Shown here: in pieces, positions 32,688 through 56,634 of the stretch
Numbering within the stretch: position 1 is the stretch's first letter
Layout: every line of letters begins with the position of its first letter
From: Fluviicola sp.
GTDB lineage: Bacteria; Bacteroidota; Bacteroidia; Flavobacteriales_D; Crocinitomicaceae
NCBI GenBank assembly: GCA_002734085.1
Contig: NVXV01000008.1
Coordinates: forward strand, 1-64,000
Length of the DNA stretch: 64,000 nucleotides
Direction of reading: 5' to 3'
Notes under the pieces: model-generated
Seen by the model: the letters and a program-made list of their open reading frames with translations, nothing else
Databases searched by the model: none
What the model was told of the DNA's origin: nothing
Translations under genes and position numbers: made by a program

Positions 32688-32837
32688 AATCAAAATTTTA
32701 GACAAAGATAACGTTCTCATTTAAAAATGGAAATGTTAAATTGAAAATTGGTTTGTATGGGGGATTAGATGTGATAAATGGTCTTGGGATTTTTTAGGAT
32801 TCGTTAGGGTTTTTTATGGAGTTGGTTGTTTTTTTGA

Positions 32838-32966
32838 GTTTAACGTTTTGCAGCTCGTATGTTTGAACCTTAAATTTAACGATATTATTTAAGGAGAATG
32901 ATTGAGCTGAGGATGATTTATCATTCAAAGTGCAATCGTAGCAGTGTTTTGTAGGTGGTATTAAGT
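32838..32966 (-). repeat. attC-like site 1
   Basis: Minus-strand R' box GTTAAAC (32844-32838, a full GTTRRRY match) and R''-like ACTTAAT (32966-32960). Inside are two hairpins: CCTTAAAT / ATTTAAGG at 32868-32894, and the 38-bp element 32900-32937 (GATTGAGCT ... AGTGCAATC) shared with sites 3 and 8. Confidence 0.55.
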
Positions 32967-32983
32967 GCTTATTATCAATAAAA

Positions 32984-33472: not shown

Positions 33473-33513
33473 ATGTAAGAGTTTTTTGGTTTTATTTGCA
33501 ATACTCTAGTTAC

Positions 33514-33592
33514 ACTTAACGGTTCTGCGCTAGGCAAAGTGGCGCTTTTATCGAGTATGTTCGTGCGCCATTTTGCTTAGTGCATGTTAGTA
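33514..33592 (-). repeat. attC-like site 2
   Basis: Minus-strand R' box GTTAAGT (33520-33514) and R'' TACTAAC (33592-33586). Two 19-base arms, 33527-33545 and 33565-33583 (GCGCTAGGCAAAGTGGCGC and its partner), pair with G-T wobbles on the plus strand around a 19-base loop. The arms resemble those of site 9 in array 2. Confidence 0.65.
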
Positions 33593-33594
33593 AC

Positions 33595-34248
33595 CTATTT
33601 ATTTCTAATTGCATATTTTCTTATTAACCAAATTAATATCATTGCCACTAAAGCAACCGTCATTAATAATCCACTATGCTCCATTTCTTTTTTGACTTCT
33701 TCTACTTTTTGGTTTTCTTCTGGTAGATAAAGATAGGGGGAACCGTGTTTAATGGATGTAATCAGGTTTTCAAAGTTCTCCTTGTCTTTAATGCTTATCC
33801 CATTTGAATTGTCAAATTGAATTCCCATAATTCCAAATTCATCAATTGTGAATCCGAAGATAGATGTGTCCCTGAGTATGATTGTTCTACCATATACACA
33901 ATGGTTCGACTCATCAATTTTTATGTCTTCAAAAGTGATCCCACTTTCTTTTGTTACTTCAAGTTTTATTTCGACGATTTTTTCAAATGTCAAATTTTTC
34001 GTCCCTGACAAAGAGTCGTAATAAATAATTATTCGCTTTAATCCAGTTCTATCATCTTTCTTTTCATAAGCAGCCATTAATTGTCGATCAAATATGGTTG
34101 ATTTAAAGGTCGTTAACTGTTCTTCTGAAAATTCAATAAATCCTTGGGGTAATTTGATTTTACTGCCATGAAAAGCAACAAGTGTGTCACTTCCCAAAGC
34201 TAAATTGTAGCAAAGGCAAAAAAGTATGATTATTAATTTGTTGTTCAC
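33595..34248 (-). CDS. Hypothetical secreted/membrane-anchored protein in a cassette
   Basis: 217 residues: signal peptide (MNNKLIIILFCLCYNLALG), a polar domain of about 160 residues with no family I recognise (TLVAFHGSKIKLPQGFIEFS near its start), and a C-terminal membrane helix (LLMTVALVAMILIWLIRKYA). The TAG stop overlaps the R'' box of site 2. The cassette is delimited on both sides by GTTAGTAACC in inverted orientation (33586-33595 and 34263-34272), the clearest cassette boundary in the window. Confidence 0.6.
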   Translation of the reverse strand: MNNKLIIILFCLCYNLALGSDTLVAFHGSKIKLPQGFIEFSEEQLTTFKSTIFDRQLMAAYEKKDDRTGLKRIIIYYDSLSGTKNLTFEKIVEIKLEVTKESGITFEDIKIDESNHCVYGRTIILRDTSIFGFTIDEFGIMGIQFDNSNGISIKDKENFENLITSIKHGSPYLYLPEENQKVEEVKKEMEHSGLLMTVALVAMILIWLIRKYAIRNK

Positions 34249-34265
34249 TCGTGTATCTTAATGGT

Positions 34266-34397
34266 TACTAACGTTCAGGGCTATGAAACCGCTGCTGTTC
34301 TTTAAAGTTAATGATAATTTTAAAGGCAAACGATTGAGCTAAGATGATTTATCATTCGAAGCGAGATTGGTGCTGTATTTTTTATGTGGTGTTATGA
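34266..34397 (-). repeat. attC-like site 3
   Basis: R' box GTTAGTA on the minus strand (34272-34266) and R''-like GCTCATAAC near 34399-34391. It contains an AT-rich hairpin (CTTTAAA / TTTAAAG, 34300-34325) and the second copy of the 38-bp GATTGAGCT hairpin (34332-34368). At about 132 bp it is close to the length of Vibrio repeats. Confidence 0.6.
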
Positions 34398-34400
34398 GCG

Positions 34401-34958
34401 TTAATAGTTAGGGTTTTCGGGGTCATATTGATTTTTAAATTTATGACAGAAATACCAATTACCCACTAAAGTCTTTCTTTCAGTTGAGAGTTGATATAAA
34501 TTACGTTTGTATATATATCTATAAGTTGTAATCGCTTGATCTGGATTCCGAACTATTATTGAATCAGGAAGTCCTATTATTGTTTTATAATCGTATGTAT
34601 TCGAAACAGAATCAAAACTTGTAACCCTCATAGCTCCGTAATAATACCAAAAGACATTGCCATTATCTGTCAACACAACACTCGGTTTATCACCATAAAA
34701 AACTGTATCCGCTTTCGAATGTAAGTTTCGATAAATACTCGATCGTTGTAATCTAGTAAAGTCAACGTAGTTTCCAAGGGAATCAATGCATACATCATAA
34801 GTGCACCGTGTTTCTGTAGTACTAGGTCCTTTATGGATTTCTTCAAATTCTAAAACTCTCGAGATGTTATGTTTTGCTAATTCTTTGGTATCGAAATCCC
34901 ATATTTGAGCAATCAAGCTAAATGGTGCAAACATTAATATTATAAAATTAATCCTCAT
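34401..34958 (-). CDS. Hypothetical secreted protein in a cassette
   Basis: About 185 residues from the ATG at 34958, chosen because it opens a signal peptide (MRINFIILMFAPFSLIAQ). The frame runs to 34994, but that would read into the attC R' box. The mature protein is rich in Tyr, Asp and Thr (GNVFWYYYGAMRV, TTYRYIYKRNLYQLS) and not recognised. The stop codon touches the R'' box of site 3. It probably acts in the periplasm or outside; no function can be given. Confidence 0.55.
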   Translation of the reverse strand: MRINFIILMFAPFSLIAQIWDFDTKELAKHNISRVLEFEEIHKGPSTTETRCTYDVCIDSLGNYVDFTRLQRSSIYRNLHSKADTVFYGDKPSVVLTDNGNVFWYYYGAMRVTSFDSVSNTYDYKTIIGLPDSIIVRNPDQAITTYRYIYKRNLYQLSTERKTLVGNWYFCHKFKNQYDPENPNY

Positions 34959-34990
34959 GGTTAAAGTCTGAATCATTCTGTATAAGTGCC

Positions 34991-35070
34991 CCACAACGTT
35001 TTCCAGCTACACCTTGCGCCGTTAACACGAATGTACGAAAAAAAGGCGTTAGGTGTAGGTGGTGTTATAC
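34991..35070 (-). repeat. attC-like site 4
   Basis: R' side GTTGTGG (34997-34991, minus) and R'' side GTATAAC (35070-35064). Arms CTACACCTTGCGCC (35007-35020) and GGCGTTAGGTGTAG (35045-35058) pair except for two central bases, with a 24-base loop containing an A-run. Confidence 0.65.
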
Positions 35071-35092
35071 GCATGTTACTTTAATTTCCTAA

Positions 35093-41130: not shown

Positions 41131-42723
41131 ATGCAAATTGAAAAAATAAAACGAACCGATACAACATACTTTTCTAAAACAGCCAATGATCTTGTTTATA
41201 GTCAAGGTGATTTGAATAAATATATAGAAGCACCATATACACTGGAAGAGTTTAAGAATCAGATTAAGAAGAAGTCATCCAACTTTTCAGCAAGGCAAAG
41301 AGAAGTATTAGTTGATCAATTGATGAAACAACATGAAGATTTTAAAGATTTAAATAGCGTTCAGTCTAATATTCAATCTTTATCAAAAGAAAACACTTTT
41401 ACGGTTACAACAGGGCATCAGCTTAACTTGTTTGGAGGTCCTTTATATGTGGCTTATAAGATTGCACATGTTATTAGGTTGGCTGAGAAATTAAAGGAGA
41501 CTTATCCTGATTATAATTTTGTTCCTGTTTTCTGGATGGCCAGTGAAGATCATGATTTTGAAGAGATTAATCATATACATCTTTTCAATGATAAAATTTC
41601 ATGGGATACAGATAAAAAAGGAGCTGTTGGTCGGTTTGAATTAAATGATATTGATGATTTTAAAGAGCAACTACTTGAGAAGTTTGGGAATAACGAATCT
41701 TTCAGTGAATACTTAAATCAATTTTATTCTGATAAAGACAAGAACTTAGCAGCTGCAACACGAAGATTTGTTTTGGATCTTTTTGGTGATAAAGGTTTGG
41801 TAACATTGGATGGAGATTCAAAAGAGTTAAAAGAGCTTTTTAGTCCAGTCATAAAAGAAGAATTGAAAAAAGGTTTTTCTGGTGAAGCTGTTTCAAAGAC
41901 TACAGAAATGTTGTTGGAAGATGGTTACAAGGATCAGGTTCACCCTAGAGAGATTAACTTATTCTATTTATCTAATCAAAGTCGTGAACGCATAATTAAA
42001 AATGATGATGGTTCATATACTGCAGGAGATAAATCATGGAAAAAGGATGAAATATTGGATGAGGTAGAATCGAAACCAGAGCGTTTTTCTCCCAATGTAA
42101 TTTTGAGACCTGTATATCAAGAAACAATTTTACCTAATTTATCTTATTTAGGTGGAGGAGGAGAGATGGCTTACTGGCTGCAGTTAAAAGGTGTTTTCGA
42201 CCATTTAAACTTAACTTACCCACTCATTGCCGTAAGAAATTCTATTCAGATTTTTGATGGAATATCACAAAAGAAAATGAAAAAACTAGACCTTTCTCCA
42301 AAGGACATGTTTAAATCTATTCACGAAAATAAAAAGCAATTTGTTTTAGAGCAAGACCAAGAAGAACTGGATTTCTCAGAGATTGAATCGGTAGGTGAAG
42401 AATTGATTTCTAAAATGGAGGGGTTGGTTTCAAAAGTAGATAGAAGCTTAGAAGCCTTTGCGAAAAGTGAATCGGTTAAAATCAATAAACAGATGGATCA
42501 TTTAAAGCAAAAGTTAATTCGTCACCAAAAGAAACAACACGACGATGCCATGAATCAAATGGAGAATTTATACGAGCGTTTATTTCCACGCAATGGATTA
42601 CAAGAGCGTTTCGAGACAATTATTCCTCTGCTAGCTAAACACGGAAAGCAAGAAACAATTAATATTTTGTTTAACAGCGTCGATCCATTCGAAAAGGATT
42701 TGATATTGTTGTTGGAGGAGTAG
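41131..42723 (+). CDS. bshC: Bacillithiol biosynthesis cysteine-adding enzyme BshC
   Basis: A 530-residue protein with the BshC hallmarks TVTTGHQLNLFGGPLYVAYK, FVPVFWMASEDHDFEEINHI and LGGGGEMAYWLQLKG, and a long C-terminal coiled-coil. It adds cysteine to GlcN-malate in the last step of bacillithiol synthesis, which marks the organism as a bacillithiol user. A TAACTTTG box at 41101 lies 23 bp before the ATG and is a likely -7 element. Confidence 0.95.
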   Translation: MQIEKIKRTDTTYFSKTANDLVYSQGDLNKYIEAPYTLEEFKNQIKKKSSNFSARQREVLVDQLMKQHEDFKDLNSVQSNIQSLSKENTFTVTTGHQLNLFGGPLYVAYKIAHVIRLAEKLKETYPDYNFVPVFWMASEDHDFEEINHIHLFNDKISWDTDKKGAVGRFELNDIDDFKEQLLEKFGNNESFSEYLNQFYSDKDKNLAAATRRFVLDLFGDKGLVTLDGDSKELKELFSPVIKEELKKGFSGEAVSKTTEMLLEDGYKDQVHPREINLFYLSNQSRERIIKNDDGSYTAGDKSWKKDEILDEVESKPERFSPNVILRPVYQETILPNLSYLGGGGEMAYWLQLKGVFDHLNLTYPLIAVRNSIQIFDGISQKKMKKLDLSPKDMFKSIHENKKQFVLEQDQEELDFSEIESVGEELISKMEGLVSKVDRSLEAFAKSESVKINKQMDHLKQKLIRHQKKQHDDAMNQMENLYERLFPRNGLQERFETIIPLLAKHGKQETINILFNSVDPFEKDLILLLEE

Positions 42724-42744
42724 AAATGTAGCACATAAAACGCT

Positions 42745-42985
42745 GCGCCCCCCTCCGTAGAACTCTGTGCAACCCTCTACGAAACTCTGTGAAACTCTGC
42801 GCAACCCTCTGTGAAACTCTGCGCAACCCTCTGTGAAACTCTGCGCAACCCTCTGCGAAACTCTGCGCAACTCTGTGCAACCCTCTACGTAACCCCTGCA
42901 CACCCCTCCGCGAAACTCTGTGCAACCCTCTGTGGAACTCCGTGCAACCCTCTGTGAAACTCTGTGCAACTCTGTGCTATTTTTT
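42745..42985. repeat. CTCTGTG repeat block C (11/22-bp units)
   Basis: About ten irregular units of the form CCCTCTGTGAAACTCTGCGCAA follow the bshC stop. The internal 11-bp period (ACTCTGTGCAA) is visible. The block ends in CTCTGTGCTAT and a T-run. The minus-strand frames here are repeat artefacts. The rest of the gap to 43065 shows nothing more than AT-rich sequence. Confidence 0.9.
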
Positions 42986-43065
42986 TTCCCTTTACTCCAC
43001 ATTTAATCCACTAATACACAACATTTTTATACCTTTATTGTTATAAAAGAAAACAAACAATTTTT

Positions 43066-44191: not shown

Positions 44192-45094
44192 ATGATTTTT
44201 GATCAACTACATTTTTATTTAGCCACCTTGAACCCGCGTTTCCTTTCGATAATTTTGCAGACTGGTAGGTATAGAGATGTATATCAGGATGATAAAGAAA
44301 AACCCTTGATATATTGGGTTGTTTTGTCTTTTTTTATTTTAATAGCTCTATTTGTTGTCGGAGGTTTTTTTTATACAGTTTTTAAAGGTATTGTAGTTGA
44401 CACCATCATTAAAGGCTCACCATTTTCAGCAAGATTTAAATGTAATCCAACGAACTTGCGATTAGCCTACAAAGTGATAGGATGTCATGTTGTTGTTGCA
44501 GATGTAGACGAACGAAGAGAACAATACATATTTCTTATATCCTACTTAAAAAGACGTTTTCCTGATGCTGACCCCATGAGCATAAGTGAAATCCCTAACT
44601 TGCACGAGATCTATCAAGAAACTCATGAGGTTTTTATGTGGTTGAATATTCACTTAGACGAAGAACATAAATTACAATTCATAGATTTCATGGTGGATCT
44701 TGCTTTCCATAATGAGAAACTGAGTAGGCGCGAGATGAATTTAATTTATTCTGCGGGTAGCGTCTTTGGAATTTCGCGCAATGAAGTAAAATCTATCCTA
44801 ACGATGCGTTATAAATTCTATCAAGATAAACGTAGGAGAGAGCAGGAGCACAGAAGAAAAACCAGAGCCACACGTCGACCATCAGTAAATTTAAAGAAAC
44901 AAGCCTTAAGAATTTTAGGGCTAGAACCGAATGTTACAGATTTTGATGTGGTGAAGAATGCCTATAGACAAATGGCAAAAAAGCACCATCCCGATCGATT
45001 CCACAATGACAGTGAGCAAGAGCAAGAGAAGGCGCACGAACGTTTTACTGAAATTAATACTGCTTATGAATACCTAGAGCAGGTTTTAAAATAG
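44192..45094 (+). CDS. Membrane-anchored TerB-like/J-domain co-chaperone, paralogue 1
   Basis: 300 residues: a hydrophobic segment (WVVLSFFILIALFVVGGFFYTV), a middle TerB/DjlA-like helical region (FRCxPTN-type start, then QFIDFMVDLAFHNEKLSRREMNLI), a very basic stretch (QDKRRREQEHRRKTRATRR) and a C-terminal J domain (residues about 235-300) whose HPD tripeptide reads AKKHHPDRFHND. DjlA-type proteins recruit DnaK to the membrane. It forms a tandem pair with the next gene, which has the same plan. Confidence 0.8.
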   Translation: MIFDQLHFYLATLNPRFLSIILQTGRYRDVYQDDKEKPLIYWVVLSFFILIALFVVGGFFYTVFKGIVVDTIIKGSPFSARFKCNPTNLRLAYKVIGCHVVVADVDERREQYIFLISYLKRRFPDADPMSISEIPNLHEIYQETHEVFMWLNIHLDEEHKLQFIDFMVDLAFHNEKLSRREMNLIYSAGSVFGISRNEVKSILTMRYKFYQDKRRREQEHRRKTRATRRPSVNLKKQALRILGLEPNVTDFDVVKNAYRQMAKKHHPDRFHNDSEQEQEKAHERFTEINTAYEYLEQVLK

Positions 45095-45242: not shown

Positions 45243-46142
45243 ATGATATTTGATCATCTGTATTATTCCTTTTCCACTTCGAATTCAAATCTTCTTGCGG
45301 TATTATTGCAGGTCAACAGATATAGTGGAAGTAGTCATAGAGAAGAAGAGAATCCTATTGTTCAATTCTTTTACATTTTCATGAGTATAATATTGATGCT
45401 GGCTTTGGTTTTTACAATTCTTTCCATTTTTAGAGACTTTATTTTACATTTTCTATTCAAGATACCTCAATTCTCAATGCTTTTTAGATATACTCCAAAA
45501 AATTTGAGGTTTGCCTATAAAGTGATTGGGTGCCATATTGTTGTTTCAGATGCTGGAGATAGAAGGGGACAGTATATGTTCTTGATTTCATATTTAAAAC
45601 GTAGATTTCCAAAAGTAGAGCGGTTGAATTTGAGTGAAATACCGAACTTACATAGTTATTACCCAAAAACTCATGAGGTCTATGTTTGGCTGAATAGGCA
45701 CTTTAAAGAAGAGGAAAAACTTCAGTTTATTGATTTTATGGTAGACTTAGCCTTTTACAATGAAAAATTAAGCCGTCGAGAGCTAGGATTAATTTATGAA
45801 GCGGGAAAAGTATTTGGAATACCGAAGATAGAAGTAAAATCAATTCTTACCATGCGTTACAAGTTCTACCAAGACAAACGTAGAAGAGAGCAGGAGCACA
45901 GAAGAAAAACGAGAGCAACTCGAAGACCAAAGAAAAACCTTAAAAATGAGGCCTTAAAGATTTTAGGATTAACTCAGAATATTACTGATTTTGATGTGGT
46001 TAAAAAGGCTTATAGAAATATGGCAAAAAAACATCATCCCGATCGATTCCATAATGATAGTGAGCAAGAGCAAGAGAAGGCGCACGAACGTTTTACTGAA
46101 ATCAATACAGCTTATGAATATCTCGAACAAGTTATGAAATAA
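45243..46142 (+). CDS. Membrane-anchored TerB-like/J-domain co-chaperone, paralogue 2
   Basis: 299 residues, co-linear with the previous gene over the whole length: MIFDHLYYSF start, membrane segment (IILMLALVFTILSIF), TerB-like middle (QFIDFMVDLAFYNEKLSRREL), the same basic linker and a J domain with AKKHHPDRFHND. The last 30 residues of the pair differ by a single residue and the linker DNA is nearly identical, while the N-terminal membrane parts have diverged. This points to tandem duplication with later drift or local conversion. Confidence 0.8.
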   Translation: MIFDHLYYSFSTSNSNLLAVLLQVNRYSGSSHREEENPIVQFFYIFMSIILMLALVFTILSIFRDFILHFLFKIPQFSMLFRYTPKNLRFAYKVIGCHIVVSDAGDRRGQYMFLISYLKRRFPKVERLNLSEIPNLHSYYPKTHEVYVWLNRHFKEEEKLQFIDFMVDLAFYNEKLSRRELGLIYEAGKVFGIPKIEVKSILTMRYKFYQDKRRREQEHRRKTRATRRPKKNLKNEALKILGLTQNITDFDVVKKAYRNMAKKHHPDRFHNDSEQEQEKAHERFTEINTAYEYLEQVMK

Positions 46143-46791: not shown

Positions 46792-46837
46792 TTGGGTTAT
46801 GTAGGGACGCACGGCCGTGCGTCCCTACATAACCCAA
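46792..46837. repeat. Dispersed palindrome, copy 2
   Basis: The 28-bp core (46801-46828, left half GTAGGGACGCACGG) sits in a perfect palindrome extended by TTGGGTTAT / ATAACCCAA to 46 bp. It lies 10 bp after the rluE-like stop and can act as its terminator hairpin. Confidence 0.9.
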
Positions 46838-49082: not shown

Positions 49083-49730
49083 TTGGATATCCTGAAATCT
49101 TATATTCGCGAAGGAGAACATCAGCAACAAGACTTTAAATTTCGTGTAGATGACGCTCAAAAAATTGCCAGAACTTTAGCTGCGTTTGCCAATACGCAAG
49201 GCGGACGGCTATTGATTGGTGTCAAGGATAACGGTAAAGTAGTTGGCGTAAACCCAGAAGAAGAATTTCATGTTATTCAAGGTGCTGCCTCCATGTTTTG
49301 TAAACCTGAGATAGAGGTTTCTACTAAGATTTTGCAGGATGACCACAAGTTAGTCCTGGAGGTTAGCGTACCACAATCTGACTTTAAACCGATACGCGCA
49401 AAGGACGATGAAGGAAGGTGGAAGACATACGTGAGAAGGGGAGACCACACGCTTTTAGCCAATAAAATCCTTATTGGAGTATGGAAACTTCAAAAAAAGA
49501 AATCCTCACGACCACAAAAATTTGCAGAAGATGAAATGCTCTTGATTAATACAATCAAAGAGGCTGGAGAAATCACATTAAGTAAGCTGTATCGTTATAC
49601 AAAATTAAAGAAGTCGTATATAGACCAATTGCTAATTCTATTTATTACCTGGGATCTGGTACAGATGAACATCTCTGAGGAAGGAACATTCTACAGTTTG
49701 AAGCGGATGGAGGAGATTGTGGAGGGTTGA
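49083..49730 (+). CDS. AlbA_2 (Schlafen-like) domain protein
   Basis: 215 residues starting at a TTG (49083); no ATG lies near. The N-terminal domain has the AlbA_2 pattern: REGEHQQQDFKFRV, ARTLAAFANTQGGRLLIGVKDNG and YVRRGDHTLLAN. It is followed by a short winged-helix-like tail (EAGEITLSKLYRYTKLKKSYID). Bacterial AlbA_2 proteins are often described as putative DNA-binding or transcription regulators; the function is unproven. Confidence 0.82.
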   Translation: MDILKSYIREGEHQQQDFKFRVDDAQKIARTLAAFANTQGGRLLIGVKDNGKVVGVNPEEEFHVIQGAASMFCKPEIEVSTKILQDDHKLVLEVSVPQSDFKPIRAKDDEGRWKTYVRRGDHTLLANKILIGVWKLQKKKSSRPQKFAEDEMLLINTIKEAGEITLSKLYRYTKLKKSYIDQLLILFITWDLVQMNISEEGTFYSLKRMEEIVEG

Positions 49731-49772: not shown

Positions 49773-51053
49773 TCATTCTTTAACAAATTTAATTACCGAT
49801 GAAGCCATTCTAATTATATAAACTCCTTTTTTCAGACTATTGATATTCAGCTTGTAAGATTCTTTACCTTTTAGTTCTCCTTTATGTATTATTGACCCCA
49901 TGAGGTCTAAAACTTGAAATTCATTTCTACCTGACTTGTTTAATTTAATGTTGATGACATTTGATGCTGGATTAGGATAAATTGTTAAGTCACTGATATC
50001 CTCCAATTCTGGCAGATCAGATGGGGAACAATTTGTTTTGGTTGAATGTATCCAATTAGCCATGAAACTAAGCACTTGTGGACTCATTGTTGAATCGTAT
50101 TCGGTACCGAAAGAATGATCGATGTCGGTAAACAACTGATATGTAACATCTGGACGCGTAATTGAATCGAGCCATATTTGATAGTGAGTATTTGATGGCA
50201 CAAACCTGTCGGCTGTTCCATACATCAAAGCAGTAGGTTTATCAGAGTTTTTCTGAACGAATACGGCAGAATCAGTATGTGAAATCCAATCAAGCCAAAA
50301 TCTTGGAGAAAAGTGGGAATTGGAAAGCGTGTCAGACATTGGCCATAAGCCCATTCGAAGTGAGTCAAATTGATGTCTTAATGTCTCAGCATTGGTTGGG
50401 TTACCATTTATAAATTCTTCCTGATAAATAGCTACAGAGTCAATTGGCTGGGCAGTCCCCGCCATATTTAGTACTCCACGAATATCAGAGCGATCATATC
50501 CGACCTGACTCACAAATGAGCCTCCTTGACTATGACCGGCCAGAAAAATATTACAAGTATCTACTGAAGGAAGATTTTTAGCAAAGTCGACGGCATAGTG
50601 AATGTCTTTGATATAATCATACGGTGAAATTGTATCAACGCTCCAACAAGGCGGTTTTTCAATGCAATTGAGGGTGAAACTTCGTTTGTCGTATCTCAAA
50701 ACCATAATTCCATTTCTGGACAAAGAGTCAGCAATTTCGTAAAACATAGCCGTTTCAGCTTTACGATAAGAAGCACCAACGCTGTCTAAATAGTCTTTCG
50801 TAGAGTTGGCATCATAATCAAGTGCAGATGTTCCATGGACTAATATTACCACAGGGAAATCAAGTCCATTCTCAGGCGTAGTTATTGCGCAAGGAAAAAA
50901 TAAAGAGTCCAACCCAAGCGAAGAGCTATACTCTGGAGTTTGAACATAAAACGAATCAATCACTGTTGAGTATCCTTGAGTGAATCCATTTCTTCCAAAG
51001 AAAAGAATGTTAATCAGTGCTAATAATAGATATTTGAATGATATTTTCTTCAT
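49773..51053 (-). CDS. Secreted alpha/beta hydrolase with T9SS type A sorting domain
   Basis: 426 residues: a signal peptide, then an alpha/beta hydrolase with VVILVHGTSALDYDANS (oxyanion region), LAGHSQGGSFVSQVGY (nucleophile Ser in GHSQGG), DRFVPSNTHYQ (acid) and IDHSFGTEYD (catalytic His). From about residue 352 there is a C-terminal secretion domain with DLTIYPNPASNVINIKLN and SLKKGVYIIRM. It is exported by T9SS and is probably an esterase or peptidase of the DUF3530/BAAT-like kind; the substrate is unknown. Confidence 0.85.
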   Translation of the reverse strand: MKKISFKYLLLALINILFFGRNGFTQGYSTVIDSFYVQTPEYSSSLGLDSLFFPCAITTPENGLDFPVVILVHGTSALDYDANSTKDYLDSVGASYRKAETAMFYEIADSLSRNGIMVLRYDKRSFTLNCIEKPPCWSVDTISPYDYIKDIHYAVDFAKNLPSVDTCNIFLAGHSQGGSFVSQVGYDRSDIRGVLNMAGTAQPIDSVAIYQEEFINGNPTNAETLRHQFDSLRMGLWPMSDTLSNSHFSPRFWLDWISHTDSAVFVQKNSDKPTALMYGTADRFVPSNTHYQIWLDSITRPDVTYQLFTDIDHSFGTEYDSTMSPQVLSFMANWIHSTKTNCSPSDLPELEDISDLTIYPNPASNVINIKLNKSGRNEFQVLDLMGSIIHKGELKGKESYKLNINSLKKGVYIIRMASSVIKFVKE

Positions 51054-51114
51054 ACAGATGTAATTGTCTTAATCTGTAAATTTAGATATTGTTAAACGTA
51101 AATACTAATTAAAG

Positions 51115-51243
51115 CTATTTAACCATTAATTTTTCAGATGAAAAACTTCCGTCTTTTAAAGTAAATTGGATGTAGTAGATACCTTTAGACATGGAAGACA
51201 CGTCAATAGAAGATAATTCTGACGTTCCATAGCTAAAAAATCG
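51115..51243 (-). pseudogene. Orphan C-terminal fragment of a T9SS type A sorting domain
   Basis: In the minus frame, about 42 codons read QRFFSYGTSELSS, then IDVSSMSKGIYYIQF and DGSFSSEKLMVK before a TAG stop. This is the end of a type A sorting domain (compare KKGVYIIRM in the neighbouring hydrolase). A stop codon precedes it and there is no start, so the 5' part of the gene is missing. The break coincides with the edge of attC-like site 8, suggesting truncation by cassette integration or deletion. Confidence 0.7.
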
Positions 51244-51245
51244 TT

Positions 51246-51342
51246 GCTATCCATAAAGTTAGGCAATAATTTGAAAGGAGAGGGAGGGATTGAGCTGAGG
51301 GTGATTTATCATTCGAAGCGCAATCGTTGCAGTGTATTATAG
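51246..51342 (-). repeat. attC-like site 8
   Basis: It contains the third copy of the 38-bp hairpin (51288-51325, GATTGAGCT ... AGCGCAATC) and an R''-like box at 51336-51342 (ATTATAG on plus, partner of GTTATAT at the cassette's 5' edge). The R' end is unclear. A plus-strand GTTAGGC at 51258-51264 also fits the GTTRRRY box, so the limits are approximate. Confidence 0.45.
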
Positions 51343-51364
51343 GCATTCTATAAACTTTTTATAT

Positions 51365-52750
51365 TTATTCTTTAACTGCCTTTCTTAGCTCTTTTTCAAC
51401 GGCTCCTTCATAATGTTCCATGAATGCATTTATTATAAAGCCATCCTTATTGATAAGGATATATCTTGGTACCCCACTTACCCTATACTGCTCTTTAAAT
51501 GATGAGTCAGAACTTATCAAGTTAGTACAGCTACCCATTTGGTGTTCTTTAAGGTAATCTCTCCATTTCTCTTTGTCAGAATCTATACTTATGAATAAAA
51601 ATGTTACATCATGAAACGTGCTCTGTAAATCCTGAATATTAGACATTTCTTTTCTACAAGGCTTACACCAAGTAGCCCATACATCTATCAAGATTAATTT
51701 ACCTTTAAAGTCTTTTAACGAAATTTCTTTTCCCGTATTTGACCTAAGTATAAAGTTCGGTGCTGGATTTCCTGGAGACAGTGAATCAGACTTAAAGTGC
51801 AGTTCTGATAAATGTTTTATGTATGTTGATCGTGGATGTTTTTTTTTAAATTCTTCCCATAACTCATTGGTTTGTTGGGTTAATCCAAAATAATCAAAAC
51901 AGGAAGTAAGATTTACGTAAGAAATAAACTCTAATACATGCTCTCCATAAGTAGAATCATTAATAAAATAATTTTCAACTGCTCTAGGGTAGAGTTTAGC
52001 CCCGAACTGATCGAATGGAAGGTCTCGTTTTACTCTATAGTCGTAATACGAAATCAAAAAGTCTTTAAATGGAATTGAGTTTGCTTTCAATAAAATAGAG
52101 TCTTTGAAAAGGTAGTGTGAACTGATGCCAAGTTCATTCTCGAGTTCTTTTTTTTCAATAAGACTTAAAGATAATGATGATAAATAAAGTTGTTTCTTCG
52201 CTAAAAAGCTTGAAATAAAATAACTTTTAATTAGAGAATAATCAGCAGGAGATAAGTGATTGCTTTCAGGTTGGGCTATTAGAAAATTCAAAAATTCTTC
52301 TTCACAATCTTTAAATTTATCAGTTGTTTTATTCTTAGGTTCATTGGAATCGATTAACAACTGTGTTTCTTCATATTTCATATCAAAATAACTCGAGCAC
52401 TTCAGAAATAAGTTATTTAATTCTTTTGTGTTTCCAAGAAATTGAATATTCTCTTCATTAATAGTTAACCTTACATCGGAATTTGGTTTTAATATTATGT
52501 AGTTAATAGGTTGATTATTAGTATTATAAATCCTGACCCACGCAAAAGTTTCATTCTCTATGTGCAGTATAACATTTCCAATTCCATTATCATTGAGGAG
52601 TAGGCTATCTTTAAATTGGTTTGAAGTAATATACACTTTCTGATTAGAATAATTCTGGGCTTCTATATAAACTTGAACATTCCCCGATTTAGCAAAAACT
52701 TGGACCGTAGAAAAGATGTAAAAAATAAAGAGCCAAAGTATTGTTTTCAT
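51365..52750 (-). CDS. TlpA-like thiol-disulfide oxidoreductase in a cassette
   Basis: 461 residues: a signal peptide (MKTILWLFIFYIFSTVQVFA), a DUF4369-like N-terminal domain (VQVYIEAQNYSNQKVYITS), a helical middle and a thioredoxin domain (from about residue 330) with active site WATWCKPC in the context LILIDVWATWCKPCRKEMSN. It is probably a periplasmic disulfide reductase. At nearly 1.4 kb it is large for an integron cassette. It begins about 110 bp after the R' box of site 9. Confidence 0.8.
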   Translation of the reverse strand: MKTILWLFIFYIFSTVQVFAKSGNVQVYIEAQNYSNQKVYITSNQFKDSLLLNDNGIGNVILHIENETFAWVRIYNTNNQPINYIILKPNSDVRLTINEENIQFLGNTKELNNLFLKCSSYFDMKYEETQLLIDSNEPKNKTTDKFKDCEEEFLNFLIAQPESNHLSPADYSLIKSYFISSFLAKKQLYLSSLSLSLIEKKELENELGISSHYLFKDSILLKANSIPFKDFLISYYDYRVKRDLPFDQFGAKLYPRAVENYFINDSTYGEHVLEFISYVNLTSCFDYFGLTQQTNELWEEFKKKHPRSTYIKHLSELHFKSDSLSPGNPAPNFILRSNTGKEISLKDFKGKLILIDVWATWCKPCRKEMSNIQDLQSTFHDVTFLFISIDSDKEKWRDYLKEHQMGSCTNLISSDSSFKEQYRVSGVPRYILINKDGFIINAFMEHYEGAVEKELRKAVKE

Positions 52751-52859: not shown

Positions 52860-52936
52860 ATATAACGGTCTAAAATAGGCAAAGTAGCGCAAACCTTGAG
52901 CCCTATCGGCGCTATTTTGTTTATTTGTTGTTATGT
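52860..52936 (-). repeat. attC-like site 9
   Basis: R' box GTTATAT (52866-52860, minus) and R'' ACATAAC (52936-52930). Arms at 52872-52890 (ending GGCAAAGTAGCGC) and 52909-52926 (GCGCTATTTTGTTTATTT) pair with G-T wobbles. The arms closely match site 2 of array 1. Confidence 0.65.
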
Positions 52937-52939
52937 GTC

Positions 52940-53167
52940 TTAAATCGTAGTTATTCTTGGTCTATTATCCCAATCGTAATCGTCTGCATTTATTAATTCA
53001 GCAAAAAGAAAAGTATCTTCAAGCTTATTTCCATCTTTATCTATCCATCGACACTTTAATTCAAAAGTTTCATCATCACTACCAATAACAATCATTTTAA
53101 TCTTCGTGTTAGATTTGTGATATACAGATGTACCAATTTTAAAATCCTCAAATTTGTATTCTTTCAT
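52940..53167 (-). CDS. YodC-like (DUF2158) small protein in a two-gene cassette
   Basis: 75 residues resembling DUF2158: FKIGTSVYHKSNTKIKMIV, then LKCRWIDKDGNKLEDTF, the usual spacing of VRLKSGGPxMTV and CxWF in the family. It lies 12 bp after the TIR-protein gene and shares its cassette. A link between the two proteins (for example sensor or inhibitor) is suggested only by this pairing. The stop lies 3 bp from the R'' box. Confidence 0.65.
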   Translation of the reverse strand: MKEYKFEDFKIGTSVYHKSNTKIKMIVIGSDDETFELKCRWIDKDGNKLEDTFLFAELINADDYDWDNRPRITTI

Positions 53168-53179
53168 TATTCCTATGGT

Positions 53180-54061
53180 TTATAATAATTTATTTGCGTC
53201 TACGGCATATCCAGCCGAGTCTAATTCTTTAACCAATCTAAACTTCCAAGTATCACTGTCATCGAGTGGGTTGTATAGAATGCCTAGTAAGTCACTTGGT
53301 AGTTCAACACCACTCTCATATAGAGGGAAAACTCTATTTCTGCCTAATCTGCCAATAAAATACCCCATTTCAAGAAGTACATTCTGCCTAGCTCTATATT
53401 TGTCCTCCTCCTCTGATTTAACTCTCCCTAAGTCATCAGCCGTTAATAAAATAATTGCAAATCCAACATCGGCATGTAATTCAAATTTTTCAATAATTGT
53501 TTGTCCTTCATTAGGTTGTTCAGCTAATATGATAGGATCAAGGTCGAGTTTTTCTAATGTCCGAGCAACGTTTAATTTAGTTCTTTCATCATGTCCGTGA
53601 ACAATGAAAATTTTATTTTTATTAGATATCTCTTTAGATGTCCCCTTAGATTTTGTTTTTGGTTTGGCGCTTGGTACAGAACTTTTTAATAAATCCGATT
53701 TAGCCAGAAGTTTTTTTAGGTTCGAAACTTTATTTTTGACTGCTTCTTTGAAATTAATGAGTTTGGAATTTGGCGTTTGGGCTCTTTTGGTGAAGCCGAT
53801 AAACATTGTGCATTTATCGTATCTATCCCTGTACTCATTATGTTCATTATTGAATGATTGTTTTAAATATTCAGAGTTGTAATCATCCCATAAATTATAG
53901 TCTTCTCTATTTTGTGAGAATTCGGATTCACTTCTTACTTGTGCAGCGAGTATTTTTTCACCTAGTTTTATTCTCGATTGAAGCTCTTTTTTAAAATCAT
54001 CTACTGAAATAATCAACTCTGTTGGAGGTGGTGCTTTATACTCTGTATTTCTTTTTGCCAT
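53180..54061 (-). CDS. TIR-domain nucleotide-binding-type protein (putative antiphage effector) in a cassette
   Basis: 293 residues. The C-terminal half (about residue 148 on) is the TIR-like domain of the CAP12/Pycsar type: KIFIVHGHDERTKLNVARTL, PIILAEQPNEGQTIIEKFE, VGFAIILLTADDLGR and RARQNVLLEMGYFIGRLGRN, which contains the candidate catalytic Glu. Family members cleave NAD+ in CBASS and Pycsar immunity. The N-terminal half is helical and unrecognised. No cyclase gene is adjacent, so the trigger is unknown. Confidence 0.82.
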   Translation of the reverse strand: MAKRNTEYKAPPPTELIISVDDFKKELQSRIKLGEKILAAQVRSESEFSQNREDYNLWDDYNSEYLKQSFNNEHNEYRDRYDKCTMFIGFTKRAQTPNSKLINFKEAVKNKVSNLKKLLAKSDLLKSSVPSAKPKTKSKGTSKEISNKNKIFIVHGHDERTKLNVARTLEKLDLDPIILAEQPNEGQTIIEKFELHADVGFAIILLTADDLGRVKSEEEDKYRARQNVLLEMGYFIGRLGRNRVFPLYESGVELPSDLLGILYNPLDDSDTWKFRLVKELDSAGYAVDANKLL

Positions 54062-54084
54062 ATTTAAGTCTGGTTATTAATGAC

Positions 54085-54165
54085 ACATAACTTGTTTATA
54101 TACACCACAAAAGTAATCATATCCGCAACCTGTCTCCGGATATAAACACCTTTTGTCCGTATTAT
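54085..54165 (-). repeat. attC-like site 10 (5' edge of array 2)
   Basis: R' box GTTATGT (54091-54085, minus). Arms CACAAAAG (54106-54113) with CTTTTGTC (54150-54157), and ATATCCG (54119-54125) with CGGATAT (54137-54143), form a two-part stem. TTGTTTATATACACCACAAAA resembles site 6. From 54166 to the next gene nothing is seen except AT-rich DNA. Confidence 0.5.
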
Positions 54166-54353
54166 TGAATAAAAATAGACATTTTAAAGTAAAAAGACCT
54201 ACAATCTTAGGATAACTAAACAAACAAGATTCGAAAAATAATCGAAATGTGAGGCAATAGGGGAGTGCAACTAAATCTTTATCCGATAATAGTCGTTTAC
54301 AAGTAATTGTACTTAAAATATTTTCAGGAAAATGGAATCATAAGCCGAAAAAA

Positions 54354-55304
54354 TCAATTCATTTCTTTCATCAAAACCTTATACAATTCAACCATTGCCT
54401 CAATATCCTCAATAAAAACTTTCTCATCTGGTGAATGCACATTGTCTTCGGGCGCACCAATAAAACACCAATCAAAGGGTAGGTCTGTGTTTTGAAGCAT
54501 TGTTCCATCGCTACCTCCTGCAGATTCAACTTCTAGCTGAAACTTGACGTTGTTTTTTCTGGCAATTTCAATGATTTTATTCAAATAGCTTTTTCTGGGA
54601 ACACCTTTATCTCGCATTGAAATAGCAACACCGCCAGCATGTTGAATGCCATCGGTAACCCAGGTGATATCTGATATCAATGCTTGGTGTATTTTGTATT
54701 TATCGTATAAGAATCGGCCTAAAAAACCTACTGAACCCCCACCATGCTCTTCGTATGTAGAAAAGGCAATGGCTCCATTTTCAAGTGTTTCAGCTACTTG
54801 TAATGCATTCCAAACACCTAAGCGATTGTCTAAATAGGGACTCTGAACATATTTGTCGTTGATTCTAAAGTTGGGTTTGAATGTGAGATTTGTTCCACGG
54901 TCTATTTCTCGGTCAAAGACGTATTTCAATATATTGTCACCAGACTCGTCTTCGATAACCATTAATTCTGTTTCAATTTCACCTTGACTGTCAGAACCTA
55001 CGAGTTGCATTCCATCAATAGCGCGGGGACCACCAATGCGAATGAGGTCTTTGTTATATCCTGTTGTATATCCAATCGTGTCAATGTGGGCAAAAATAGC
55101 GGTTTTTGGTTTTCCAAAAACGAGTACGAGTGCATCTTGAAAGCCTTCTCCATAAAACAATTCTGGTTTTACTTTCCAGCTATCCTGATTCTTTTCAATG
55201 TACTCTAATATAAAATCCCGGATCAATTCTTCATCACCTGAAGCACCGTGAACTTTTATTAAATCTTCTAATAATTCAAATTTAGTATGTGCCAATTTTT
55301 TCAA
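54354..55304 (-). CDS. M42-family glutamyl aminopeptidase-like metallopeptidase
   Basis: A 316-residue di-metal aminopeptidase. The metal ligands can be placed: FAHIDTIGY (His), SPYLDNRLGVWNAL (bridging Asp), FSTYEEHGGGSVG (catalytic Glu and ligand Glu), LISDITWVTDG (Asp) and EDNVHSPDEKV (His). It trims N-terminal residues from peptides in the cytoplasm. Its 5' end overlaps the 3' end of the IMPACT-family gene by 23 bp. Confidence 0.88.
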   Translation of the reverse strand: MKKLAHTKFELLEDLIKVHGASGDEELIRDFILEYIEKNQDSWKVKPELFYGEGFQDALVLVFGKPKTAIFAHIDTIGYTTGYNKDLIRIGGPRAIDGMQLVGSDSQGEIETELMVIEDESGDNILKYVFDREIDRGTNLTFKPNFRINDKYVQSPYLDNRLGVWNALQVAETLENGAIAFSTYEEHGGGSVGFLGRFLYDKYKIHQALISDITWVTDGIQHAGGVAISMRDKGVPRKSYLNKIIEIARKNNVKFQLEVESAGGSDGTMLQNTDLPFDWCFIGAPEDNVHSPDEKVFIEDIEAMVELYKVLMKEMN

Positions 55305-56580: not shown

Positions 56581-56634
56581 TGAATAAATTCATGTAGGGA
56601 CGCAAGGCCGTGCGTCCCTACATGAATTTATTCA
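56581..56634. repeat. Dispersed palindrome, copy 3
   Basis: The core 56594-56621 has left half GTAGGGACGCAAGG (one mismatch to the perfect palindrome). It is extended by perfect 13-bp arms TGAATAAATTCAT / ATGAATTTATTCA to 54 bp. The right arm contains the last codons and TAA stop of trmD, and the left arm is their mirror image. Confidence 0.9.

Follow-up and report, generated by a model that had tools for sequence, protein, structure and literature searches.

How did the end of a gene for a secreted protein come to stand without the rest of that gene, directly beside an attC-like element in the genome of Fluviicola sp.? The locus lies in a 64,000-nucleotide stretch of DNA that was analyzed as a whole and is here called the window. 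The initial annotation had read positions 51115 to 51243 as a T9SS sorting-domain fragment of about 42 codons, truncated at the edge of a cassette array. We asked what the fragment is, where exactly it was cut, and which event could have cut it.

The fragment lies at positions 51115 to 51222 of the minus strand and is what is left, at the 3' end, of a gene with a T9SS type A sorting domain; we call it the remnant. Its reading frame has 35 codons (51222 to 51118) followed by the stop codon TAG (51115 to 51117) and encodes the peptide SELSSIDVSSMSKGIYYIQFTLKDGSFSSEKLMVK. The plus strand of 51115 to 51243 is noncoding and has many stops. The NCBIfam model of the T9SS type A sorting domain, TIGR04183, matched the remnant peptide with 24.6 bits over profile positions 41 to 72 of 72 (E 1.8e-5; the cut-off is 23 bits). 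A 35-residue version of the peptide received the same score, over positions 42 to 72. As a control, we searched with shuffled remnant peptides, and none of the nine matched anything. The Pfam model PF18962 gave 22.8 bits, which is under its cut-off of 27. A readable C-terminal piece without a gene body is therefore present, as first annotated. However, it lies on the minus strand, and its length is about 35 codons, because the 21 bases at 51223 to 51243 belong to the R' end of the neighboring attC-like element.

We compared the remnant with the other sorting domains of the genome. Searched in six frames, with 150 of 205 candidates scored, the genome gave a report of 145 T9SS tail matches at E 0.01. 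The remnant scored 22.5 bits in this search, slightly under the cut-off of 23, over profile positions 38 to 72. Its open frame of 47 codons was the shortest among the 145 matches reported; the others had 90 to 2872 codons. The remnant shares with TIGR04183 and PF18962 the last 32 to 35 or so positions of the domain, and it runs to the stop codon. However, the first approximately 40 profile positions and the whole body of the secreted protein are absent, so it does not form a full-length domain at the C terminus of a signal-peptide protein. The remnant is a real sorting domain, but a partial one, and it is exceptional among those of this genome.

The surrounding genes form a short array between two conserved flanks. 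Read along the minus strand, the right flank is an M42-family peptidase gene (54354 to 55304, minus). It is followed by a possible first attC- or attI-like hairpin on the plus strand (54080 to 54172; R' GTTATGT), which is weak (z -1.58). Next is a cassette gene for a candidate anti-phage effector, whose TIR domain is of the CAP12/Pycsar type (53180 to 54061, minus; PF10137, 129.8 bits), and a 75-residue ORF (52940 to 53167, minus) that apparently belongs to the same cassette. A short attC site of the classic type, with a stem of R box and L box, lies at 52860 to 52940 on the plus strand. For a site of this length the bottom strand folds well (z -2.33), and the site is unrelated to the 139-bp element described below. 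The last cassette gene encodes a 461-residue protein with a thioredoxin/redoxin domain (51365 to 52750, minus). It is followed by the 139-bp attC-like element and the remnant. Downstream of the remnant is an intact α/β-hydrolase gene with its own full T9SS tail (49773 to 51053, minus), onto which the left flank, an AlbA_2/Schlafen-type gene (49083 to 49730, plus), converges. We also considered whether the remnant had been copied from the tail of the hydrolase gene and rejected this by eye, as the two tails are unlike.

By eye, no additional attC-like site lies between the remnant and the converging AlbA-type gene, either in the gap between remnant and hydrolase or in the 42 bp between hydrolase and AlbA-type gene. 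The sites at 51216 to 51358, at 52860 to 52940 and, more weakly, at about 54080 to 54172 thus place the remnant at the edge of the array, as had been proposed. With two attC sites (the one at 51216 to 51358 being degenerate) and no integrase nearby, the array corresponds to a CALIN, a term of IntegronFinder for an attC cluster lacking an integron integrase that takes at least two attC sites (parts of PMC9024848). It shares with CALINs the attC-like sites, the co-oriented genes, and the absence of an integrase from the window. It differs in that the 139-bp attC-like type is specific to the genus, and in that two recombinase remnants are present on other contigs.

Other features were seen elsewhere in the window. 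A second array of small minus-strand genes has two 139-bp attC-like sites (32837 to 32970 and 34265 to 34401) and attC-like hairpins of other types at 33490 to 33600 and 34990 to 35085, with strong folds (z -4.86 and -3.10). A 32-bp near-palindrome, ATGTAGGGACGCA..CGTCCCTACAT, is present in two copies that are 97% identical and 9.8 kb apart (46799 to 46830 and 56592 to 56623). Positions 42716 to 42999 hold a dense 10/12-bp minisatellite with AAACTCTGCGCAACCCTCTGTG-like units. Two tandem paralogous genes, at 44192 to 45094 and 45243 to 46142, are 72% identical over 300 nt and have C termini that look J-domain-like by eye.

The attC-like element next to the remnant occupies 139 positions at 51216 to 51358. 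Its bottom strand is the plus strand of the window, and its gene sense is minus. A DNA search with this element found 13 other copies in the Fluviicola sp. genome (E 1.8e-28 to 5.1e-6). We take this search as the primary evidence for the element, because the 139-position model was built from 13 copies that include the one in the window, whose own model score is therefore not independent. The model gave 33 matches in all, 15 of them in the Fluviicola sp. genome. At least one match was present in 8 of the 10 genomes searched within the genus, and there was none in 20 genomes outside it; the family is genus-restricted among these 30 genomes. In good copies read in gene sense, the first core resembles GCATAAC or TTGCACAAC, and the last letters are AACGTTATG or CGTTGTGCAAC; we assign these to R'' and R' of an attC site. 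Canonical copies have complementary cores, such as GTTGCACAAC / GTTGTGCAAC. By manual reading of 29 copies out of the 33 matches, GTT is present at R' in 18 and absent in 11. A script gave 19, counting two GTT that lie elsewhere than at R' and overlooking one copy in the wrong orientation. On contig C28 (25100 to 25164), an attC of this type is broken in mid-element, and the ORF after it apparently has no start.

The copy in the window departs from the consensus at both ends. Its R'' core is TTTATAG, compared with RYYYAAC, and its R' core is GTCAGAA, compared with GTTRRRY, so that its R' end reads AACG^TCAG in place of AACG^TT. The copy is worn at both cores. Across the family, the outer stem is paired in 80% of cells, versus 33 to 56% when it is slid. 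No covariation was seen in this stem. Pairing was 78.7% when stem partners were dealt out anew, and 108 of 500 shuffles were as high as observed. In the window copy, 14 of 20 stem pairs are formed, with 1 of 4 in the R box, two positions of which lie outside the slice that was read. The bottom strand of this copy folds no better than shuffles (z -0.24). Among the four copies whose bottom strands were folded, one reached z -4.0, and the other two beside the window copy gave -0.31 and +1.76.

To locate the cut, we set the end of the element against the start of the sorting domain. A few bases of the model match extend into the first codons of the remnant. The junction lies between G 51223, the last base conserved in the attC family, and T 51222, the first base of the T9SS frame (minus strand), with an uncertainty of about 10 nt. 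In the alignment, the window copy tracks most other copies through AACG. It then continues with TCAGAATTATC and the T9SS frame, where the others have TTATG or similar. The T9SS profile match begins at 51225 in the whole-genome search, or at codon 4 of the remnant peptide. Together, the profile start and the AACG limit place the gene break within about 10 nt of the canonical crossover G^TT, which is the integrase crossover position at R' given in the integron literature (parts of PMC10127599). This agrees with the earlier reading of the sorting domain as truncated, and we read the T9SS gene as severed where the array ends on its 3' side. However, the junction triplet is GTC and not GNT, the minimum that is quoted for IntI1 in the same parts of that paper. 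GTC at R' also occurs in one congener copy (L081), and it may reflect decay of the attC site.

The initial annotation had offered cassette insertion into a chromosomal gene as one cause of the truncation. The truncation is real, but simple insertion would leave the 5' half of the gene at the other edge of the array, at 54.1 to 54.35 kb. The sole frame there has 48 codons and no NCBIfam or Pfam match at E 0.1, and no 5' half of a cut T9SS gene was recognizable. As a check, the annotation proposed looking in relatives that lack the array for an intact gene with this tail next to the hydrolase. None was found in the stretches read from nine congeners or in a Saprospiraceae metagenome-assembled genome. 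In stretches of 7 to 10 kb, we read the congener flanks around the AlbA-type gene, found in 9 of 9, and the M42 gene, found in 8 of 9. The two are never neighbors there: they lie on separate contigs in seven of eight genomes and about 26 kb apart in the eighth (G006). Beside these flanks, the stretches read held no remnant-like T9SS gene, hydrolase, cassette gene of the window, or empty site. Two genes that often sit beside AlbA or M42 in the congeners have their orthologues on contigs C5 and C23 of the Fluviicola sp. genome, which indicates that the window locus is rearranged.

Protein and DNA searches extended this comparison. In a phmmer search of 752 ORFs from the congener stretches, together with the Saprospiraceae locus (L124), the 35-residue remnant had no match at E 10, and the hydrolase matched the Saprospiraceae locus alone. 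That homologue, 66% identical, is the sole confirmed relative of the hydrolase in the collection of genome contigs searched. No close relative was found in 58 other genomes searched, seven of which gave weak, partial matches. The gene preceding the homologue is PD40-like by eye and is not the parent of the remnant. The Saprospiraceae match and the lack of a close relative in the 58 genomes suggest that the hydrolase gene was horizontally transferred. When the remnant peptide was searched against 149 genomes, its own included, at E up to 0.001, there were 11 non-self matches. The best was 50% identical, and all were in frames of 231 to 1245 codons. The search in its own genome gave two weak matches, in long frames. 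A DNA search of 40 genomes with 51054 to 51222 found, besides the window itself, just short low-scoring matches (E 0.003 or worse), and a plasmid collection gave no match at E 0.1. The claim of a truncated gene was to fall if profile searches showed no similarity to sorting domains or if relatives conserved the short ORF alone. A profile match is present, and no conserved stand-alone ORF like the remnant was found in the 149 genomes. The scar had further been proposed as a means of dating the array. With neither a parent gene nor an empty site, it gives no date.

We then asked whether an integron integrase is or was present. A search of the genome with the integron integrase model TIGR02249 gave no match over the cut-off, only pieces below it. 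None of its 23 matches lies on the contig of the window (C14). The same search also gave matches in 14 of 14 control genomes, and a further search used a threshold that silenced the controls too. Two C-terminal tyrosine-recombinase remnants stand beside same-strand cassette-like genes on other contigs, one at C28:20021-20383 (a frame of 120 residues) and one at C25:441449-441694 (81 residues). The first scores higher with Xer models (100.6 and 97.2) than with TIGR02249 (92.0), and the second slightly higher with TIGR02249 (79.5) than with Xer (75.0). These scores support the two as tyrosine recombinases and not, beyond that level, as integron integrases. Being of the Xer/IntI kind, the remnants may leave room for a former integrase.

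We tentatively favor, at a little under an even chance, an origin by recombination at the attC R' site. In this scenario, a secreted-protein gene in cassette orientation would once have bordered a small integron-like array on its downstream side. Recombination, perhaps by an integrase, would have connected the R' crossover of the array's final attC-like site with a point within the sorting domain of this same-orientation T9SS gene. The gene body would have been lost and a dead 3' remnant left. The simplest single event would be a deletion by an integron integrase between attC and non-attC DNA, with the intervening DNA excised as a circle; such a deletion would leave no 5' half behind. In a variant, the array would have inserted into the T9SS gene, and the 5' half would have been lost later. 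The sorting-domain homology and the closeness of the break to the crossover argue for this origin, as do the shortest open frame among the tail matches reported, the complementary cores of canonical attC-like copies, and the pairing of their outer stem. No 5' half is recognizable at the other edge, and the congener stretches held no intact gene next to either flank. With 145 tail matches reported, T9SS genes are common targets in this genome.

We infer an integrase as the agent, its former presence, and a chromosomal origin of the gene. The agent is suggested by the position of the break at R', a suggestion weakened by the GTC triplet. The worn cores, the poor fold z, the lack of stem covariation, and the sub-cut-off TIGR02249 pieces also speak against this origin. 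Recombination at R' itself is called into question by the missing parent gene and by the flanks, whose other neighbors in congeners make other breakage plausible. The more specific proposal is that a Bacteroidota integron integrase made an off-target deletion from the last attC into the adjacent secreted-protein gene, in a lineage whose integrases may survive only as C-terminal remnants. We consider this proposal unlikely. Recombination by IntI at attG and other secondary sites was reportedly described by Loot et al. in 2024. Off-target IntI events include inversions at GNT sites (parts of PMC10127599) and attG insertion (parts of PMC12901181 and PMC12444791). The window junction resembles them in that an R' crossover is joined to non-integron DNA, but it differs in its triplet, GTC versus GNT, in having no reciprocal half, and in its genome, where TIGR02249 matched only below the cut-off. 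We found no clear second case of an array end that cuts a gene exactly at R' among 29 attC matches, several of them misoriented on display.

The main rival, deletion or rearrangement next to the attC, independent of any integrase, is quite possible, if somewhat improbable on balance. The coincidence with R' would then be due to chance or to breakage of a palindromic attC. The separation of AlbA and M42 in the congeners, with other neighbors there, fits such an event, as do the orthologues on C5 and C23 and the misfit of GTC to GNT. In the parts of PMC10127599 concerned, the integrase is blamed for inversions alone, and deletions ended inside attC without integrase motifs. The attC broken in mid-element at C28:25100 and the recombinase remnants, which score about as well with Xer models as with TIGR02249, point the same way. 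Against it stands the position of the break: the last cassette plus its element cover about 1.6 kb, and yet the crossover is no more than about 10 nt away. Alternatively, a further cassette with a T9SS-protein gene may have been inserted after the attC, with later loss of the 5' part and of the attC that it brought. The remnant has the cassette orientation and sits directly after R', where the next cassette would start, and several genes that follow attC copies in the genus begin, by eye, with apparent signal peptides. Yet a decayed cassette would be expected to touch R' with its 5' end and not its 3' end, by eye an attC-like element is seen neither before the hydrolase nor after it, and the search of 149 genomes gave no close homologue of the tail. 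We regard this alternative as rather improbable.

The remnant may also be thought of as a small functional ORF, or as a tail added to cassette proteins by read-through, since its frame of 35 codons has stayed open and the sorting-domain pattern is preserved. However, no start codon stands ahead of the domain core, the frame has stops inside the attC-like element, and the preceding cassette gene terminates before that element. We therefore take the remnant as probably dead DNA, without function and not made into protein. The search of 149 genomes, with no conserved stand-alone ORF, adds to this, and a functional product is very improbable. Among insertion, integrase deletion, plain deletion and cassette decay, the events are indistinguishable here.

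Among the titles listed for integron secondary sites, attG, CALINs, and T9SS with gene cassettes, none describes such a junction. Few complete integrons are reported for Bacteroidota in the parts of the IntegronFinder 2.0 paper concerned (PMC9024848). Past DNA recombination probably left the remnant as an ordinary scar, through an event of a known kind. Gene remnants at array edges are expected from off-target integrases or from DNA rearrangement, and this one carries little weight alone. If an integrase made it, it would show off-target integron deletion occurring naturally in Bacteroidota. Of more use than the remnant itself is a by-product of the analysis, the genus-specific attC-like family.
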